IMG/VR virus record: IMGVR_UViG_3300035701_000238
Span: 1-26,660 of that record
Source of the DNA: a virus
Length of the DNA stretch: 26,660 nt
Direction: 5' to 3' (one strand)
Made by a program: the position numbers and the translations under genes. Every line of letters starts with the position of its first letter. The stretch's first letter is position 1. Positions 5,921-24,745 of this stretch are shown here, in pieces. Under the pieces are notes generated by a model. The model worked only from the letters and a program-made list of their open reading frames with translations. It was not told where the DNA came from and did no database searches.

Positions 5921-8026
5921 ATGGAATTTGAAAAGTTTAAACACTTATTGCAAGAACATGTTGAAGAACTACTCAAGGATCAGTCTCATTTGTTTGTTAT
6001 AGATGTAGATAAGGATGTATTATGGAATACTTATCTTGATAGTTTTCCTGAGGGGACTAATGAGATCTTTCGGAAACGTCGTTATTATGATTGTAGTTGT
6101 TGTCGTCATTTTATCAAATCATTTGGGAATGTTGTTGTCATTAAGGACAACAAGATAAAAACTATTTGGGATTTTAAAACAGGAGAAACAGTAACCCTTC
6201 CAGTCTATCAACCTGTTTTAACAGCTCTTTCTAAGTTTGTTAAAAGCCATCCTGTAACTGATGTTTTTGTTACAAAGGAAAGTCAATTTGGTACTGATAA
6301 GAGTTATGAGAAAAAGGAAGGTTCTGCAGTTCTTACTTGGGATCATTTTTATGTGAAGCTTCCTAAGAACTTTATACATAAGACATCAGATACAGTGCCT
6401 ACTAGAATGGGTGTATATCGAGATATTCGTAATGTATTCAAGAGATCCCTTGATGAAATTTCTAAGGATTCAATTGATACAGTCTTAGAGCTTATTGCAC
6501 AGAAATCACTTTACAAAGGTGAGGAATGGGAGAATGTGTTATCAAAGTTTTTAACCCTTCATAAAGAGTATCACAAACTTAGTGCAAAGGAAAAAGAAAA
6601 TTATTGTTGGGTAAAATCAATGGAGGTAGGTGGTGTCATTGGAAAGATCAAAAACCATTCAATCGGAACCCTTCTCATGGATGTTTCAAATGGAGTTGAT
6701 CTTGATGAAGCAGTTCGAAAGTATGAGTCCATTGTGGCACCTACTAACTACAAAAGACCAAAGGCAATTTTTACCAAGAAAATGTTGGAAGAGGCACAAA
6801 AGAAGATTGAAGAATTAGGTTTGATGGATTCATTAGGAAGAAGGTATGCGACCCTTGATGATATTACTATCAATAATATCTTGTTTGCAAATAAAGATGT
6901 GGCCAAGAAAATGACTACAAATATAATGAATGTATTTGATGAAATGAAAAAGGATGTTGAAGTAGTTAATCCAAAACAACTTTCAAAGGTAGAGGAAGTT
7001 CCTATTGAAACATTTGTAGAGAACATTCTTCCAACGGCAACTAAAATTGAGGTATTACTTGAAAATAAACATATACCAAATTTGGTTTCATTGATTGCTC
7101 CAAAGGTAGGTGGATGTAAGACATTATTTAAATGGAACAATAACTTTTCATGGGCTTATAAAGGGAACATTACAGACAGCAGTATGAAGGAAAGAGTTAA
7201 ATTGGCTGGTGGAAATGTGGAGGGGATTTTGAGATTTTCTCTTCAATGGAATGAGAATGAAGATAATCAAAATGATTATGATGCTCATTGTTTTGAACCA
7301 GGATCAAAAAGTAAAGCAGATCGATATTATCGGAACAGTGAAGCTGGTCACATCTTTTTCCCAAATAAAGGGAGAAGTCACCCTTCCTCAGGTATGTTGG
7401 ATGTGGATATTATTCATCCTGCTCGAACTCAAGTTGCTATTGAAAACATTAGCTATACTGATGTTAATAAAATGAAAGAAGGTGTATATAGTTTCAACGT
7501 CCATTGTTATTCCCATAGAGGAGGGAGATCAGGATTTAATGCTGAAATAGAATTTGATGGGCAAATCTTCTCCTTTAACTATCCAAATGATATAAGGCAG
7601 GATGAATTTGTAGAAGTAGCAGAAGTAGAATATACACATAAAGAAGGATTTAAAATTGTTAAGTCTCTTCCTTCCTCATTTTCATCACGGGATGTATGGG
7701 GATTAAAAACAAATGCTTTCCATCCAGTTTCAGTGTGTATGTTCTCTCCAAATTACTGGGACAAGCAAAAGAGTAATGGACATAAACATTATCTCTTTAT
7801 GTTGAATGGATGCAAGAATGAAGAAAGTCCTAATGGGTTCTTCAATGAATTTTTGAAAGAAGACTTTATGCCTCATAAAAGAGTATTTGAGGCATTGGGA
7901 AGTAAAATGAGGGTTGAAGAGACAGACAAACAACTTTCAGGAATAGGATTTAGTTCCACCAAACATAGTGAGGTAATTTGTAAAGTGGAAGGGGCATTTA
8001 ATAGGATGATAAAGTTGGTGTTTTAA
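5921..8026 (+). CDS. Large conserved phage protein with DUF2135-like C-terminal domain
   Basis: An in-frame ATG at 5894 is nearly at the predicted transcription start and has no ribosome binding site. The ATG at 5921 has GGGGGAAATT before it and is chosen (701 aa). The N-terminal part contains a cysteine-rich CSCCRHF (C58, C60, C61, H63) followed by VVVIKDNKIKTIWDF. The middle is helical. From about residue 430, ILRFSLQWNE then DYDAHCFEPG, GMLDVDI, ENISY and GVYSFNVHCYSHRGG form a beta-rich module like DUF2135 (LxWxxxxDLDLH, GxLDxD, ENI, GxYxV). No catalytic motif is seen and the biochemical role is unknown. A von Willebrand A protein is encoded 2.8 kb downstream; the two may be partners. Confidence 0.8.
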   Translation: MEFEKFKHLLQEHVEELLKDQSHLFVIDVDKDVLWNTYLDSFPEGTNEIFRKRRYYDCSCCRHFIKSFGNVVVIKDNKIKTIWDFKTGETVTLPVYQPVLTALSKFVKSHPVTDVFVTKESQFGTDKSYEKKEGSAVLTWDHFYVKLPKNFIHKTSDTVPTRMGVYRDIRNVFKRSLDEISKDSIDTVLELIAQKSLYKGEEWENVLSKFLTLHKEYHKLSAKEKENYCWVKSMEVGGVIGKIKNHSIGTLLMDVSNGVDLDEAVRKYESIVAPTNYKRPKAIFTKKMLEEAQKKIEELGLMDSLGRRYATLDDITINNILFANKDVAKKMTTNIMNVFDEMKKDVEVVNPKQLSKVEEVPIETFVENILPTATKIEVLLENKHIPNLVSLIAPKVGGCKTLFKWNNNFSWAYKGNITDSSMKERVKLAGGNVEGILRFSLQWNENEDNQNDYDAHCFEPGSKSKADRYYRNSEAGHIFFPNKGRSHPSSGMLDVDIIHPARTQVAIENISYTDVNKMKEGVYSFNVHCYSHRGGRSGFNAEIEFDGQIFSFNYPNDIRQDEFVEVAEVEYTHKEGFKIVKSLPSSFSSRDVWGLKTNAFHPVSVCMFSPNYWDKQKSNGHKHYLFMLNGCKNEESPNGFFNEFLKEDFMPHKRVFEALGSKMRVEETDKQLSGIGFSSTKHSEVICKVEGAFNRMIKLVF

Positions 8027-8889: not shown

Positions 8890-8898
8890 AAGGAATGT

Positions 8899-8971
8899 CG
8901 AGGCGTAGCGCAGTTGGTAGCGCACCTGCCTTGGGAGCAGGGGGTCGGAGGTTCAAATCCTCCCGTCTCGA
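8899..8971 (+). tRNA. tRNA-Pro(UGG)
   Basis: A cloverleaf is readable. The acceptor CGAGGCG pairs with CGTCTCG (one G-T pair), followed by discriminator A. The anticodon loop CTTGGGA gives TGG. The T arm is GGAGG-TTCAAAT-CCTCC. No CCA is encoded. The structure is regular. Confidence 0.93.
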
Positions 8972-8979
8972 TCAAAATG

Positions 8980-9055
8980 GTGTAGGTGCCTGAATGGTAA
9001 GGGAACGATTACCAACTGCAAATCGTATATGTAGGTTCAAATCCTACCCTACACC
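8980..9055 (+). tRNA. tRNA-Cys-like (GCA?) with enlarged anticodon loop
   Basis: The acceptor GTGTAGG pairs with CCTACAC, and the T arm is GTAGG-TTCAAAT-CCTAC. The D stem CCT/AGG has loop GAATGGTA. The anticodon stem CGATT (9006-9010) pairs perfectly with AATCG (9021-9025), leaving a five-base variable loop. The loop between them, ACCAACTGCA, has 10 bases instead of 7. CTGCAAA, the usual Cys loop, is present but shifted against the stem. An extra G-C pair (8979 with 9055) could lengthen the acceptor. The amino-acid identity is therefore tentative. Confidence 0.65.
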
Positions 9056-9068
9056 CCAAATTTTTCAA

Positions 9069-9185
9069 AGGGGAGTAGCATAATGGTAATGCTGCGGAGT
9101 CGTAATCATGGTAGCAGCATGATAGTAGTGCTCCTAGGTAAGCACTTACTCTTAAGTCATGCTGGTTCGAATCCAGTCTCCCCTA
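9069..9185 (+). tRNA. Oversized tRNA-like gene, anticodon unassigned
   Basis: The outer parts are a proper tRNA. AGGGGAG (9069-9075) pairs perfectly with CTCCCCT (9178-9184). The D arm is GCAT-AATGGTA-ATGC, and the T arm is GCTGG-TTCGAAT-CCAGT. Between D and T arms there are about 68 bases instead of the usual 22-25. This interior holds two extra hairpins: ATCATG/CATGAT with loop GTAGCAG, and AGTGCT/AGCACT with loop CCTAGGTA. The total of 117 bases is too long even for a Leu or Ser tRNA. It may be a tRNA with an insertion or a tRNA-like decoy. Confidence 0.6.
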
Positions 9186-9188
9186 TAT

Positions 9189-9260
9189 GCTTCCGTAGTT
9201 CAATGGTAGAACGGGCGACTTATAATCGCTTGATGGTAGGTTCAAATCCTCCCGGAAGTA
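9189..9260 (+). tRNA. tRNA-Ile(UAU)
   Basis: The acceptor GCTTCCG pairs with CGGAAGT (G-T at the end), discriminator A. The D arm is GTTC-AATGGTA-GAAC. The anticodon stem GGCGA/TCGCT has loop CTTATAA, giving TAT, which reads AUA. The T stem has one mismatch. AUA is frequent in this AT-rich coding sequence, so a phage copy is plausible. Confidence 0.88.
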
Positions 9261-9286
9261 TTTTTATAGAATAAGGAGAAAGTTCT

Positions 9287-9772: not shown

Positions 9773-9844
9773 AGCGGGGTAGAGCAGAGGTAGCTTGTCA
9801 GGCCCATAACCTGGAGGTCGAGGGTTCGAATCCCTCCCCCGCAA
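9773..9844 (+). tRNA. Initiator tRNA-fMet(CAU) with C33
   Basis: The body GCGGGG/CCCCGC pairs, and the first position forms an A1xA72 mismatch, the hallmark of bacterial initiator tRNAs (C1xA72 in E. coli). The anticodon stem TCAGG/CCTGG has loop CCCATAA, giving CAT. The T arm is GAGGG-TTCGAAT-CCCTC. Position 33 is C, not the almost universal U. The anticodon stem lacks the full three G-C pairs of E. coli tRNA-fMet. The gene abuts the stop codon of the preceding CDS. Confidence 0.82.
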
Positions 9845-11860: not shown

Positions 11861-12994
11861 ATGACCAGTCAAGCTGTCATAGGATGTGGCTTTGGGGATG
11901 AGGGCAAGGGAAAGACTGTCAGTTTCCTTTGCACTCAATACCCAAAGTCATTGGTAATTAGATTTAGTGGAGGGCACCAGGCAGGTCACCAAGTCTTTTA
12001 CCAAGATAAAAAACATGTATTTTCAAATTTTGGAAGTGGGACATTACAGGGATGCCCCACTTACTGGTCAAAGTTTTGCACAATAGATCCTGTAGGAATT
12101 ATGAATGAGCTTAATGATTTAGTAAAAATAAAATGTTTCCCTATTCTTTATATTGATAGAGAATGTCCAGTGACTACTCCTTTTGATAAAAGGGAAAACC
12201 GAGATGTTGATGAAATGAGGGGACATGGTTCAGTTGGAGTTGGTGTTGGACAAACATATGAAAGGGAATCAGATTTTTATTCATTGCTTGCAGGAGATTT
12301 ACTTGATCCATATGTCTTTAATGAGAAGGTAAAACTAATCAAAGATTATTATAAGATAGAAGGACTTGAAGAAGAGGAAGAAGATTTTCGTGTGGCATGT
12401 CTACAATTAGCAAATTACCCTTATAATCTTCCTGAAATAAAAATAATAAAGCAAAGGAATCTTCCTTGGGATTGCTTTAATAATATTATTTATGAAGGAT
12501 CACAGGGATTAATGTTAGATCAACATTTTGGATTCTTTCCCCATGTAACTTATGCAAATACGGGAATAAAAAACATTATTGAATTGTCAAAGCAGGGATA
12601 TTATCATTTACCATCGTTAAATGAAATATACTACGTCACACGAGCATATTTAACAAGACATGGTAATGGGCCAATGCCAAATGAAGAATTTGATTTTAAA
12701 CCAAATAATCCTTATGAATATAATTCCGATAAAACATATCAAGGGAAGTTTAGAACAGCTCCTCTGTCTCTTGATTTACTACACTATGCAATCAATAGAA
12801 ATCGAGGAGATGACTGTTATAAAGAAAAACTAGTGATTACTTGTCTTGATGTTGCTGATGAATTCCCTTTTACCATTGGTGGAAAATTATATACTTTGAA
12901 AGGAAGGGAATTAGTTTCAAGAATGTGTGATATAATTAATATCAATGAATCATTATTGAGCTATGGGCCACGAAACAACATGGAAGGAATATAA
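11861..12994 (+). CDS. Adenylosuccinate synthetase family enzyme (PurA/PurZ-like)
   Basis: The family joins Asp to a purine nucleotide using GTP or ATP: PurA acts on IMP and phage PurZ on dGMP in the 2-aminoadenine (Z) DNA pathway. GFGDEGKGK at residues 10-18 keeps the catalytic Asp13, and SGGHQAGH supplies the catalytic His43. RGHGSVGVGVGQT, TRAYLTRHGNGP and the C-terminal SYGPRNN are phosphate- and Asp-binding segments in the shorter archaeal/PurZ style. TCLDVAD (327-333) replaces the PurA guanine-binding TKLDVLD, with Lys lost and Asp kept. At 377 residues it is shorter than E. coli PurA. Retention of Asp13 argues against a typical PurZ; the substrate is open. Confidence 0.85.
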   Translation: MTSQAVIGCGFGDEGKGKTVSFLCTQYPKSLVIRFSGGHQAGHQVFYQDKKHVFSNFGSGTLQGCPTYWSKFCTIDPVGIMNELNDLVKIKCFPILYIDRECPVTTPFDKRENRDVDEMRGHGSVGVGVGQTYERESDFYSLLAGDLLDPYVFNEKVKLIKDYYKIEGLEEEEEDFRVACLQLANYPYNLPEIKIIKQRNLPWDCFNNIIYEGSQGLMLDQHFGFFPHVTYANTGIKNIIELSKQGYYHLPSLNEIYYVTRAYLTRHGNGPMPNEEFDFKPNNPYEYNSDKTYQGKFRTAPLSLDLLHYAINRNRGDDCYKEKLVITCLDVADEFPFTIGGKLYTLKGRELVSRMCDIININESLLSYGPRNNMEGI

Positions 12995-13163: not shown

Positions 13164-14063
13164 TTGATTTGGGAGAAAGGACAAGTTCCTTGGAATAAAG
13201 GATTAGTAGGTGTTTATTCCGAGGAAACATTAGAAAAAATGAGAAAACCAAAGTCTGAAGAAGCTAAACAAAATATGAGAAAACCAAAATCAGTGAAAGG
13301 ACATATTCCTTGGAATAAAGGATCAACAGGAACAAAACGCTCAGAAGAATTCTGTAAAAAGATGTCAGAATTAGCTAAAATAAGGGAACAAAAAAAGAAA
13401 GAAGATGGATTTACAGTTAAACAAGAAACAAAAGACAAGATAAGTAAAAAATTGAAGGGTAGGAAAATACCAAAGGAGAAACAAAGAAAGAATTATAAAC
13501 CCACACAAGAAACAAAAGACAAAACAAGTAAAACACTTATGGGGCATTCTGTTTCAGAAGAAACAATAGAAAAAATGAAGAACAGAGAATATTCAGAAGA
13601 AACAAGAAAGAAAATGAGTGAAAAACAAAAAGGAAGGAAACATACTGAAGAACATAACTTGAAAATTGGTAAAGCTCTAAAAGGGAGAAAACAAACAGCA
13701 GAACACACTAGAAAAGTAAGGGAAGCAAACATAGGAAACCCAAAACTTTCTGGTACTAATAGTCCATGGTATATTGATGGGAAGGGGGAATATCCATACC
13801 CTAAGGATTTTACCAATATCAGAAATTCTATTTTGAAAAGAGATAATCATACTTGTCAACATTGTGAAGCAAAAGCTATTGAAGTACATCATATAGATAG
13901 GGATAAAACTAACAATGATCCAATGAATTTAGTTAGTGTATGTAAGAGCAGTCATACACTCGCTCATATTCCAAAACAAAGATCTTATTGGAAATTGTAT
14001 TATGAGGAATTAATGTCTTTAAGATTTTCAAATATAAAACAAGAAAAGGAGATTCATTTATGA
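13164..14063 (+). CDS. HNH homing endonuclease with NUMOD3-type repeats
   Basis: It starts at TTG 13164, with AAAGGAG upstream and WEKGQVPWNKG conserved from residue 3. The N-terminal two thirds is a string of Lys/Glu-rich NUMOD3-like DNA-binding repeats (SEETxEKM, KKMSEKQKGRKHTEEH). The C-terminal domain is HNH: CQHC (231-234), VHHID (241-245), N near 251, then CKSSHTLAH. The last zinc pair reads C260-x2-S263, so one zinc ligand is lost. Free-standing homing endonucleases insert beside conserved phage genes; this one precedes the ssDNA-binding gene and overlaps it as ATGA. Confidence 0.9.
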   Translation: MIWEKGQVPWNKGLVGVYSEETLEKMRKPKSEEAKQNMRKPKSVKGHIPWNKGSTGTKRSEEFCKKMSELAKIREQKKKEDGFTVKQETKDKISKKLKGRKIPKEKQRKNYKPTQETKDKTSKTLMGHSVSEETIEKMKNREYSEETRKKMSEKQKGRKHTEEHNLKIGKALKGRKQTAEHTRKVREANIGNPKLSGTNSPWYIDGKGEYPYPKDFTNIRNSILKRDNHTCQHCEAKAIEVHHIDRDKTNNDPMNLVSVCKSSHTLAHIPKQRSYWKLYYEELMSLRFSNIKQEKEIHL

Positions 14064-15085
14064 CAACAGGAAAGGATATGTATCGTCAGATGTGCCAAAA
14101 AGTGAAAACGTGGAGCTCCGATCAGGAACGTAAAAGTGGTGGGGGGCAAGAATTTGTTCTTCCAAGGGAAGCTTCCTTTTTCAAACCACACAAAATCAGT
14201 CCAGATGATAAGTTCATTATTAATCGTATAGAATTAATTCCGTATATCATTAGTATTGATAATCATCCAAAAGCAAAAAAAGGAGAGGCTTATTGGACAA
14301 GGAAATATTTTAGACATCGTGGATTAGGTGCTGATCATAAACTGACACTTGTATGTCCTTCAACATTAGGAAAACCATGTCCAATTTGTGAGTTCAGAAG
14401 GGAACTTGCAAAAGAGAAAGGGTGGAAAGATGATGAAGTTTCAGCTCTCCGTCCTCAGGAAGTTGATATTTTCAATATAATTGATAAGGATGAACCAACA
14501 AAAGGTGTTCAGCTTTTTGTAATGAGTTATGCTATGTTTGGTAAGAAATTCAAGGAAGAGATAGATGCAGATCCAGATAACATTTATTGTGTATTGCCTA
14601 CAAAGGAAGGAAAGACAATAGTAGCAAGATTTTCAGAAGAAAAATATGGAAACAATCCTTATTTTGAATGTTCCAAACTTGATTTCAAAGATAGGAAAGA
14701 AGATATAGAAGAAAAGTTGTTGAAGCAAGCAATTGATTTGGACACAATTCTTATTATTAAATCAGCACAAGAGATTCAGACAATATTTTTAGGTCTTGAG
14801 GCTGCCTCCACTGATCATAATACGGATACTGAAGTGAAAGTGGAAACAGAGCAAAAGGAACAGAAGGAACAGAAGGAACACAAGGAGGAGAAACATGAAC
14901 CAAGTCGCAAATCTAAACCTGTTGATACTGAAGAGAAGAAAGAGGAGAAGGTAAGTTCTAAAAATACTTCTGAATGTCCCTTTGGTCATGTTTTCGGGGT
15001 AGATACTAATAAGTTTGATGAATGCGATGATTGTCCAAAGTGGGATCCTTGTTGGGAAGAAAAGGATAACTTGAAGAAGAAATAA
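14060..15085 (+). CDS. Single-stranded DNA-binding protein, T4 gp32-like
   Basis: The protein would coat ssDNA at the replication fork and during recombination. The core shows a zinc site like gp32: H93-x5-C99-x7-C107-x2-C110, with CPICEF. It lies in an OB-type domain followed by LFVMSYAMFGKKF. Residues about 255-300 are a charged linker with EQK repeats. An extra C-terminal cysteine module (C306, H310, C322, C325, C331) is present; gp32 itself has an acidic tail there. The start overlaps the homing endonuclease stop, and the spacing suggests the endonuclease is an insertion upstream. Confidence 0.85.
   Translation: MTTGKDMYRQMCQKVKTWSSDQERKSGGGQEFVLPREASFFKPHKISPDDKFIINRIELIPYIISIDNHPKAKKGEAYWTRKYFRHRGLGADHKLTLVCPSTLGKPCPICEFRRELAKEKGWKDDEVSALRPQEVDIFNIIDKDEPTKGVQLFVMSYAMFGKKFKEEIDADPDNIYCVLPTKEGKTIVARFSEEKYGNNPYFECSKLDFKDRKEDIEEKLLKQAIDLDTILIIKSAQEIQTIFLGLEAASTDHNTDTEVKVETEQKEQKEQKEHKEEKHEPSRKSKPVDTEEKKEEKVSSKNTSECPFGHVFGVDTNKFDECDDCPKWDPCWEEKDNLKKK
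14849..14884 (+). repeat. Nine-base tandem repeat (EQK) in SSB linker
   Basis: Four successive 9-base units encode EQK, EQK, EQK and EHK in the charged linker of the ssDNA-binding protein. Units two and three are identical. This is typical slippage-prone linker DNA. Confidence 0.85.
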
Positions 15086-15093
15086 GAGCTGGT

Positions 15094-15113
15094 GTGGTCT
15101 GTAAGGATCACAG
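15094..15113 (+). other. Small hairpin at left end of the unit
   Basis: TGTGGTC pairs with GATCACA (one G-T pair) around loop TGTAAG, just after the SSB stop and overlapping the left inverted repeat. It competes with the 14-bp long-range pairing. No U-tract follows. Confidence 0.4.
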
Positions 15114-15191
15114 GGGATATAAAAGGTTTGTCATGGAAAGGTTTAATGTCTGAATGGTAGTGAGGAGAAGCGATAAATAAGGAGCAACACC

Positions 15192-15383
15192 ATGGGACAT
15201 AAACCATACACACAGGAAGAAACAAAGCATCACGGGCAGAATGTAGTCAGGAATTACGATGGTGCTGGAAAGAACTTCAGGACAGACATCTGGGAAAAGA
15301 ACAGTGCTGGAAGCACCACCAAGGAAGGACATCGGGTAGTCATAGACGGAAAGACCTACGATCATTACGGTAAAAAGATCTAG
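15192..15383 (+). CDS. Small basic protein of the inverted-repeat unit, 63 aa
   Basis: AAGGAG precedes the ATG. The protein is rich in Lys, His, Gly and Tyr (HKPYTQEETKHHGQNVVRNY; ending IDGKTYDHYGKKI), with no membrane span or cysteine. Its codons are much richer in G and C at third positions than those of the flanking genes. It is the only gene inside the 14-bp inverted repeats. No family is recognised; a nucleic-acid-binding role is a guess from charge. Confidence 0.65.
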   Translation: MGHKPYTQEETKHHGQNVVRNYDGAGKNFRTDIWEKNSAGSTTKEGHRVVIDGKTYDHYGKKI

Positions 15384-15422
15384 GTGAACAAAGACCACAC
15401 CAGCTATAAAAAGGAGGATAAA

Positions 15423-15926
15423 ATGTCAACAAATGATGTTCCGGGAGCAGAACCAAGAAATCAAGATAAATTAGGTATAGGATGTTGGGCAGAAGCACAA
15501 GATGGTTCTTTACTTCTTGTGGAAGGGATAGATGATGAAAAAGTCATCTATTCTATTTTCAATATGGCTCCATCAAAATTAGATCCTCCTCAACCTGCTG
15601 TTGAATATCGTGATGCTATGCCCATCAAGGGATTTGAAAAACAGTTTTCCTATTCAAAAAGTAAGAAACCTTTAGGAGGACTTTGGACGTGGCATGATAA
15701 AACCCCCTTTCCGTGGGAAAGAATAATTAAGGAAGGAATGCCAGATGGGGTTCGTTATTCTTCAGTTGAAGATCAGTTAAATGCAGCAATGCAAGTAGTC
15801 AGAGCAAGAAAGTTGTTAGGCCAAGGTCTTCCTGTTGCTGCAAGACCATGGATGAATCAAGTTAAGGACAAGAGCAGTAAGATAATTGACAAGATTCAAA
15901 GGGCAATTTCAGAATTGAGAGCATAA
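15423..15926 (+). CDS. Hypothetical protein, 167 aa
   Basis: A GTG at 15384 opens the frame, but it lies before the right inverted repeat. ATG 15423 has AAAAAGGAGGATAAA directly upstream and is chosen. The N-terminal half is a small beta-rich domain (GIGCWAEAQDGSLLLVEGID, VIYSIF). LWTWHDKTPFPWERII is a striking aromatic segment, and the C-terminus is helical. The family is not recognised. Confidence 0.8.
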   Translation: MSTNDVPGAEPRNQDKLGIGCWAEAQDGSLLLVEGIDDEKVIYSIFNMAPSKLDPPQPAVEYRDAMPIKGFEKQFSYSKSKKPLGGLWTWHDKTPFPWERIIKEGMPDGVRYSSVEDQLNAAMQVVRARKLLGQGLPVAARPWMNQVKDKSSKIIDKIQRAISELRA

Positions 15927-17241: not shown

Positions 17242-17315
17242 GTTGGATGACTGTTTTCTTAATTTTACTAGTACTATTGTTAGTTGGAATTCAACAAGAT
17301 GTAGGGGGATTATAA
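17238..17315 (+). CDS. 25-residue membrane peptide
   Basis: The ATG overlaps the previous stop (ATGA), and the TAA overlaps the recombinase ATG (TAATG), so it bridges the two genes. The peptide is almost only a hydrophobic helix: VFLILLVLLLVGIQ. It may be a real membrane peptide or a translational-coupling leader for the recombinase. A 24-residue peptide of the same design exists at 19630. Confidence 0.45.
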   Translation: MSWMTVFLILLVLLLVGIQQDVGGL

Positions 17316-18415
17316 TGGAAGTGACAAGAAAGAAATTAGCGGAACAAATTGAAGAAGAAGCCACCACGAACGGAGGGGACGAAGTTGTTAGTGAAGGGCC
17401 TTTCGTCCCCTCCGGCTCAACCTTATTGAATCTTGCTTGTTCTGATTCAATTGAAGGGGCTTTTGCTCTTGGAGGCTTAGTAAACATTATAGGGGATAGT
17501 CAAGCAGGAAAGAGTCTTTTGGCTCTTTCCATTTTGGCGGAATGTTGTAGTAATCCAATATTTAAAGACTACAAACTTATCTACGATGATGTAGAAGAAG
17601 CAAATTCCTTTGATATGGAGAATTTATTTGGGAATAAGTTGGTAGACAGATTGGAAGCTCCATTATATGTGGATGATCTTCCTGTGTATAGTAATACTAT
17701 TCAAGATTTTCATATGCATATAAATAGATTGGTAAAAGAAGGAGCCCCTTTTATTTATATATTGGATTCATTTGATGCTCTAACATCCGATGAAGAAATA
17801 AGTCATGTTGAAGGGAGGTTGGATGCTAGGGAAAAGGGAAAAGAAGCAAAAGGTAGTTATGGAATGGATAAGCCAAAGGCCATGAGTCAAATGCTTAGAA
17901 TGGTTAAAGGTAGTGTGAAAAGAACTAAATCCTTTGTGGGAATTATCTCACAAACAAGAGATGATATAAATCCCATGACTTTTACTAAGAAAACAAGATC
18001 AGGAGGAAATGCTCTAAGGTTTTATTCCTGGCATGAGATGTGGTTGGCTATTTCAGGAAAGATAAAAGGTAAAAGAGATATTCCTATTGGTGTGAACACA
18101 AAGATTAAAGTTAGTAAAAATAAGATAACTGGAAAACTCAGGGAAGTAGAATTCCCTATCTATTATTCACTAGGTATTTCAGATACTGAGTCTTGTATTA
18201 ACTGGTTGGTGGAGTATAAGTTTTGGGGGAAGTCTGGAGCATATATTGCTCCTCAAGATTGGGAAACATTGAGTAAAGATAAGTTTTACTTGAGGGATCT
18301 TATTAAGGAAATTGAAGATAATAATTTGGAAAAGTCATTAGCAAACCATGTCGGAATGAAATGGAAAGAAGTTGAAGATGAATTGAAGTTAGAAAGGAAG
18401 AAGAGATATGAATAA
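17315..18415 (+). CDS. RecA/UvsX-like recombinase
   Basis: Although the frame opens at ATG 17243, the ATG at 17315 has AGGGGG and TAATG coupling and gives 366 residues. The ATPase core shows Walker A GDSQAGKS (60-67), an acidic YDDVEEA, Walker B FIYILDSFDAL, and GIISQTRDDI, as in RecA/UvsX. The protein would catalyse strand exchange in recombination-dependent replication. The C-terminal part is not RecA-like and resembles phage forms. A perfect GC-rich hairpin lies inside codons 19-33. The gene overlaps a YopX-like gene by eight bases. Confidence 0.87.
   Translation: MEVTRKKLAEQIEEEATTNGGDEVVSEGPFVPSGSTLLNLACSDSIEGAFALGGLVNIIGDSQAGKSLLALSILAECCSNPIFKDYKLIYDDVEEANSFDMENLFGNKLVDRLEAPLYVDDLPVYSNTIQDFHMHINRLVKEGAPFIYILDSFDALTSDEEISHVEGRLDAREKGKEAKGSYGMDKPKAMSQMLRMVKGSVKRTKSFVGIISQTRDDINPMTFTKKTRSGGNALRFYSWHEMWLAISGKIKGKRDIPIGVNTKIKVSKNKITGKLREVEFPIYYSLGISDTESCINWLVEYKFWGKSGAYIAPQDWETLSKDKFYLRDLIKEIEDNNLEKSLANHVGMKWKEVEDELKLERKKRYE
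17371..17414 (+). other. Perfect 13-bp GC-rich hairpin inside the recombinase gene
   Basis: CGGAGGGGACGAA (17371-17383) is the exact reverse complement of TTCGTCCCCTCCG (17402-17414), with an 18-base loop. It starts 57 bases after the start codon. It is the most GC-rich stretch in this neighbourhood. No U-run follows. The encoded peptide is a loop before the ATPase core. Confidence 0.85.
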
Positions 18416-24102: not shown

Positions 24103-24122
24103 GAATTAAAAAGGAGAAAAAC

Positions 24123-24569
24123 ATGGAACCAACATTTTATACAAACGCTCCAGTAGAAGACATGGCAAATGACTTGATTCAAAAGTATGATGAACTTTCT
24201 GATTGTAGTTCTGCTATTATTAAGTATGTTTTTAAAAATGCAGAAAAGTCAAAACATGCTGGTGTTTGTTCCAAAGCAACTGGAAAATGGAAGTTCTTAG
24301 TTGATGTTGATTATGTTATAGAACTGCACTTTGAAACATGGGATGAATTAGATGAATTGCAACAAAAAGCATTACTATTCCATGAGCTTCATCATATTGA
24401 AAAGCAAACCAAAGTTAAAGATGGAGAAGAAATTGTCACCTGGAAAATTAGAGAACACACAAATCAGTTGTTTCTAAAAGAAGTAGAACTGTTTGGTGCT
24501 TGGAATTCCTCTTTAGTTCAATTACAAAATGCGTTTCTTGGAATAAAGACTCAGGCTGATTTAGAGTAA
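24123..24569 (+). CDS. Putative phage metallopeptidase, 148 aa
   Basis: QQKALLFHELHHIEK carries HELHH (H87, E88, H91), the zinc-binding and catalytic helix of a zincin. Upstream VDYVIELHFETWDEL is a strand, and a downstream WKIREHTNQLFLKEV helix may offer the third ligand. The layout matches the putative phage metallopeptidase family found in many tailed phages, whose target is unknown. AAAAGGAG precedes the ATG. A possible antisense gene overlaps its last 19 bases. Confidence 0.8.
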   Translation: MEPTFYTNAPVEDMANDLIQKYDELSDCSSAIIKYVFKNAEKSKHAGVCSKATGKWKFLVDVDYVIELHFETWDELDELQQKALLFHELHHIEKQTKVKDGEEIVTWKIREHTNQLFLKEVELFGAWNSSLVQLQNAFLGIKTQADLE

Positions 24570-24745
24570 GGAATGTTTTCTGAGGATGCATTAGATAATA
24601 TGACTTGGTTTAAAAGTTCATTAGTGAAGTTGATGATGTCTTTGGTTGCAAAACCATTTTTAAGCATCTCTTTGTGCATGGTTTTAGCCAGTAGTTTAAC
24701 TGCTTTTGTTGGTTCCATGTTTTTTAGTATTATTGGAGTTGTCAT
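24551..24745 (-). CDS. Possible minus-strand gene, 64 aa
   Basis: The minus frame encodes a soluble helical protein (MEPTKAVKLLAKTMHKEMLK, then KDIINFTNELLNQVI) with purines favoured at first codon positions, as in real genes. The + strand ORF over the same bases (24573-24809) has a poorer composition. No Shine-Dalgarno is seen. Going upstream of its ATG on the minus strand there is ATAATAT-like sequence, then a perfect palindrome (24771-24791). It converges with the metallopeptidase gene. This would be the only minus-strand gene in the window, so the call stays cautious. Confidence 0.42.
   Translation of the reverse strand: MTTPIILKNMEPTKAVKLLAKTMHKEMLKNGFATKDIINFTNELLNQVILSNASSENIPYSKSA

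Follow-up and report, generated by a model that had tools for sequence, protein, structure and literature searches.

A small gene enclosed by a perfect 14-bp inverted repeat in a phage replication operon: possible acquired cassette or RNA stem

Why is a single small gene, lying among the replication genes of a phage, enclosed by a perfect inverted repeat? The window analysed here, the whole stretch of 26,660 nucleotides (IMGVR_UViG_3300035701_000238, positions 1 to 26,660), is a gene-dense fragment of an uncultured phage, and its replication genes include a clamp loader, a PurZ-like adenylosuccinate synthetase, an HNH endonuclease, UvsX, an exonuclease and a RuvC-like resolvase. The unit in question (15087-15405, 319 bp in total) lies between the homologues of a single-stranded-DNA-binding protein (SSB) and of UvsX, and every gene near it is encoded on the + strand (Table 1). 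It drew attention in a preliminary description as a GC-richer segment with inverted-repeat ends, possibly a mobile cassette or else an RNA stem.

Table 1. Coordinates of the unit and of its neighbouring features in the window
Feature	Position	Strand	Remarks
SSB homologue, upstream neighbour	14060-15085	+	33% identical to ZHS_54 of Edwardsiella phage vB_EpM_ZHS
Left arm	15087-15100		AGCTGGTGTGGTCT; starts 1 nt past the SSB stop codon
Leader	15101-15191	+	91 nt, purine-rich, untranslated; weak hairpin
63-aa orphan gene	15192-15383	+	Basic, hydrophilic; GC3 0.49; codon periodicity in the correct frame
Right arm	15392-15405		AGACCACACCAGCT; ends 3 nt short of the AAAGGAGG RBS of the next gene
ATAAAAAGGAGGATAAA box	15406-15422	+	Recurrent stop/RBS module of the phage, outside the unit
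Conserved protein, downstream neighbour	15423-15926	+	First gene of the cassette 15423, 16109, 16417
UvsX-like recombinase	17243-18415	+	2158 nt after SSB here

Some features away from the unit are of interest in their own right. The PurZ-like 2-aminoadenylosuccinate synthetase (11861-12994, matching phrog_1211) means that the phage DNA may contain 2-aminoadenine. A tRNA cluster at 8898-9261 and 9773-9844 comprises five tRNAs according to Rfam and three according to ARAGORN, the one at 9069-9185 being unusually long. Additionally, the window holds a perfect 18-bp inverted repeat (24117-24134 and 24707-24724, with about 570 nt between the arms), where 0.03 repeats of at least 16 bp within 700 nt are expected per window; its first arm spans the start codon of a phage metallopeptidase gene (PF18894) and its second lies inside the next ORF, and the repeat could mask this start codon in long transcripts.

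The claimed perfect 14-bp inverted repeat around 291 bases is present, with arms that are exact complements. Both arms fall wholly within the untranslated spacers (106 and 39 nt) that flank one 63-codon gene, and they touch neither the SSB stop codon nor the ribosome-binding site (RBS) of the following gene. By 300 first-order simulations, about 0.14 perfect inverted repeats of at least 14 bp within 400 nt are expected per window, which is the conservative figure, since the repeat was found by inspection and so selected post hoc; a repeat of this kind with equally GC-rich arms appeared in none of the 300 simulated windows. When spacer pairs were simulated 3000 times at the same composition, the longest complement was 11 nt and none reached 12, and the six other genes with spacers of at least 8 nt on both sides have complements of 2-6 nt. 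Because the repeat is placed exactly in the two spacers, we consider its accidental origin unlikely.

Between the arms there is, as had been claimed, a single intact gene with its own RBS: one + strand ORF of 63 aa preceded by AAGGAG, which the weak leader hairpin exposes in its loop. The GC3 of this ORF (0.49, against a mean of 0.24) lies above that of all 264 63-codon windows drawn from other genes, its synonymous-codon score falls in the lowest 0.8%, and its codon log-odds are positive in frame (0.115) and negative off frame. Such a composition joined to an in-frame coding signal is the expected look of a real, acquired gene. Thus, given its own RBS, codon use like that of coding sequence and a GC3 further from the norm than anywhere else in the window, we conclude that the ORF was probably acquired. 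Neither a sigma-70-like promoter nor an intrinsic terminator was recognised for the unit in a search that covered these types only, so the gene probably relies on the operon transcript for its expression. The protein had no match in Pfam, PHROGs, NCBIfam or PADLOC and nothing significant in phages (best E = 9), plasmids or PDB, and peptide scans of IMG/VR and GTDB genomes and of 50 related viral records gave no match; these homologue scans detect close relatives only. A single-sequence structure model reached a mean pLDDT of 79.5, with the other four models at 49-62, and no significant fold match was obtained.

The gene's composition bears directly on a further point, namely that the boundary of the repeat was held to be a boundary of base composition. 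The unit is indeed GC-richer than the window (0.448 against 0.350, in the top 1.3% of 319-bp windows), as is its interior (0.436, in the top 2.9% of 291-bp windows), and a maximal-segment search places the best-scoring GC-rich segment at 15086-15404. It reaches these limits, however, only because the arms themselves are GC-rich, and with the arms set neutral it contracts to 15181-15360, the ORF. Thus, the GC step marks the gene and not the repeats; the excess is a property of the 63-aa gene rather than of a repeat-bounded unit, and the higher GC content stands while the coincidence of the two boundaries fails.

The surroundings of the unit are variable among relatives. The upstream neighbour is identified through ZHS_54, which matches the PHROG SSB profile 1192, and a two-sequence SSB profile recruited 80 viral contigs carrying a related SSB. 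Counted once per distinct downstream sequence, these relatives number 66; 49 of them carry a UvsX match after SSB, in most cases no more than 700 nt away. The annotation of Edwardsiella phage ZHS leaves 3 nt between the two genes, and relatives share about 27-50% protein identity with the window. Here the corresponding stretch of 2158 nt consists of the unit followed by genes at 15423, 15929, 16109 and 16417. As UvsX lies close behind SSB in most relatives, we conclude that this interval accepts insertions and is a place of gene gain and loss. Two relatives (L209 and L213) have a tRNA-Gly gene between SSB and UvsX, and part of the 5' end of this tRNA is exactly complementary to a stretch upstream of the gene; in L213 the gene lies at 6392-6480 and the stretch at about 6223-6236. 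The genes at 15423, 16109 (a zinc ribbon) and 16417 keep their order in other viral contigs recovered through the 15423 gene, whose protein is about 37-50% identical there, at GC contents of 25 to 64% where measured. In the stretches fetched from contigs with this gene cassette, this SSB or UvsX was not matched, and none of the eleven relatives inspected had a comparable repeat upstream of the 15423 gene.

The downstream edge of the unit adjoins a module of the phage itself. The box ATAAAAAGGAG, which at 15408 holds the RBS of the 15423 gene, recurs before start codons at about 8283, 8663, 10050, 10378 and 23084; at the junctions 8662, 10377 and 23083 the preceding gene stops at the TAA of the box. 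Computed removal of the unit, together with one ATAA, leaves the junction AAATAA-AAAGGAGGATAAAATG, which resembles these three and would fit an insertion that duplicated 4 bp. ATAA, which occurs at either end of the unit but 1 nt off on the left, was the sole candidate for a target duplication; it is not significant, and as a gene ending it is so common here (29% of genes) that it is no evidence by itself.

Evidence for present or past movement was sought within the window and beyond it. The stated absence of a transposase was borne out, none being recognised in the window, nor any site-specific recombinase, integrase, invertase or reverse transcriptase. The 14-bp ends, which it had been proposed to seek in other genomes, yielded no second pair at a spacing of 280-310 nt in IMG/VR or GTDB genomes, and the unit's DNA had no match in 50,697 phage records or in plasmids. 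Single arms match at least 119 stretches in IMG/VR, and among the matches listed only the window itself has an exact partner arm within 1.5 kb. Three loci with 2-3 mismatches and constant spacing (L022, L102 and L104, the first two being copies of one region) were rejected as copies of the unit, as both matches occur in the opposite order. We regard the lack of relatives in the searched collections as weak evidence. The idea of a mobile cassette is accordingly left with the outlying GC3, the variable SSB-UvsX interval and the clean junction on its side, and, against it, with no copies, homologue, recombinase or significant duplication found.

We tentatively favour reading the unit as an acquired one-gene cassette in the replication operon, delimited by its repeats. 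The 63-codon gene, with its foreign-looking codon usage, would have arrived together with its own leader and RBS, and its target would have been the stretch from SSB to UvsX, which varies among relatives. The 14-bp repeats would be the ends of the acquired segment, which may once have been mobile. If it was, a transposase or recombinase from the host or from another phage would have been needed, as for a non-autonomous element. Ordinary phage recombination may instead have carried the unit in, an HNH endonuclease gene sitting just upstream of SSB. That gene (13164-14063) shares 4 nt with the start of the SSB gene, and the enzyme is a possible free-standing homing endonuclease.

The reading that comes next, and that we hold to be nearly as likely, places the role of the repeat in RNA: once the operon is transcribed, the arms would base-pair and loop out the 291 nt that carry the small message. 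Such a stem might be processed by an RNase III-type enzyme, or it could shield the message from exonucleases and from the ribosomes of neighbouring genes. When as much as 250 nt of flanking sequence is included per side, the arm-arm stem is predicted with a pair probability of 0.85-1.0, its duplex energy is about -26 kcal/mol, and the unit folded with its arms gives z = -3.7 against shuffles; the position of the arms, in untranslated spacers that adjoin but exclude the SSB stop and the next RBS, also suits such a stem. This is the stem that had been suggested as an alternative. Against it, the interior without the arms is no stabler than shuffled sequence (z = -1.1), so that the arms carry all of the folding signal. 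Additionally, ribosomes finishing SSB would sit over the left arm, relatives with SSB have no equivalent conserved structure, and pairing leaves the outlying codon usage unexplained. Long-loop repeats of at least 11 bp do occur downstream of SSB at 6 of 56 loci, against 1.1 expected, the one in L213 overlapping the start of its tRNA-Gly gene; they differ in position and structure and belong to no Rfam family, and a structured RNA shared between SSB and UvsX was rejected. We rank the cassette first because the GC3 extreme of the window is the very gene that the repeat encloses, a coincidence that pairing does not predict, and the RNA stem next because, wherever the unit came from, its transcript is predicted to pair. 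The two are compatible, as an acquired cassette could have ends that pair in the message. We think it doubtful, and a good deal less probable than either, that the unit represents a new minimal type of mobile cassette, of 319 bp with perfect 14-bp ends around one 63-codon gene, moved in trans and inserted so as to leave translation of the operon intact, whose ends also form a closing RNA stem insulating the message of the cargo gene.

Other explanations are improbable to differing degrees. The repeat may have no function and be a match that arose by chance or neutrally, the spacers around an otherwise ordinary acquired gene being unusually long. To this explanation we give a small but real share of the probability: the window-wide expectation and the selection of the finding after looking speak for it, whereas the GC-rich arms and the length of the spacer complement were not reproduced in any simulation. 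It is far less likely that the unit is a conserved structured non-coding RNA, such as a large phage RNA, an intron or a retron-like element, in which the ORF would be incidental. A closing stem and the length of the unit fit the general plan of such RNAs, but an Rfam search of the unit gave chance-level matches only, even at E 10, its interior folds no better than shuffles, the ORF has coding periodicity, and the genes neighbouring the unit had no match to reverse transcriptase. Least probable of all is an invertible segment, in which site-specific recombination at the repeats would switch the gene on or off. Known invertible promoters are bounded by inverted repeats of similar length; against this, no recombinase was recognised in the window, and none of the codon shuffles closed the minus-strand ORF at 15108-15398, which an inversion would bring into the direction of reading. 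As a second reading frame this ORF was thus rejected, being a by-product of composition.

At present the unit is a single locus, unreplicated, and its gene is an orphan. Should the cassette reading hold, the unit would lie near the lower size bound for a gene-carrying insertion and would show how essential operons could gain a single gene without breakage. Should the stem reading hold, it would offer a simple means of insulating one message within an operon.

We do not assign the unit to the mycobacteriophage mobile elements MPME1/MPME2, to MITEs or to classical morons, and a search of the literature on phage MITEs, long-range intercistronic pairing and repeat-flanked morons found nothing close. 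Precursors of rRNA are closed by complementary flanks and processed by RNase III. The unit likewise has complementary flanks around a long RNA segment, but here 14 bp surround a 291-nt coding message and processing is only putative. The profile matches of the neighbouring genes include no reverse transcriptase gene beside the repeats, as a retron would have. MITEs are multicopy, have ends in common with an autonomous element, leave target duplications and usually carry no gene. In its shortness, its inverted ends and its want of a transposase the unit resembles them; it differs in carrying a gene, its ATAA is a candidate duplication that falls short of significance, and neither further copies nor an autonomous partner with the same ends were found in IMG/VR or GTDB (for single arms, among the matches listed). 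A classical moron brings a promoter and a terminator of its own. As in a moron, one acquired gene of deviant composition sits between two operon genes that are left undisrupted, but no promoter or terminator of the sigma-70-like and intrinsic types searched for was recognised in the unit, and inverted-repeat ends are no part of the moron definition.

The closest in plan are the mycobacteriophage elements. According to the account in PMC3029335, which cites Sampson 2009, MPME1 measures 439 bp and occurs as identical copies at different sites in sister phages, and its insertion adds 6 bp at the left end. Compared with the elements as that account gives them, our unit is 319 bp long and present as a single copy: near-identical copies in several phages were not found, its DNA having no match in 50,697 phage records and its paired ends none at a spacing of 280-310 nt in IMG/VR. 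Nor was an empty site seen among relatives at about 27-50% protein identity. What the unit has in common with MPME1 and MPME2, as far as the description in PMC3029335 goes, is that of a very small phage element without a familiar transposase, bounded by inverted repeats at its left and right ends.
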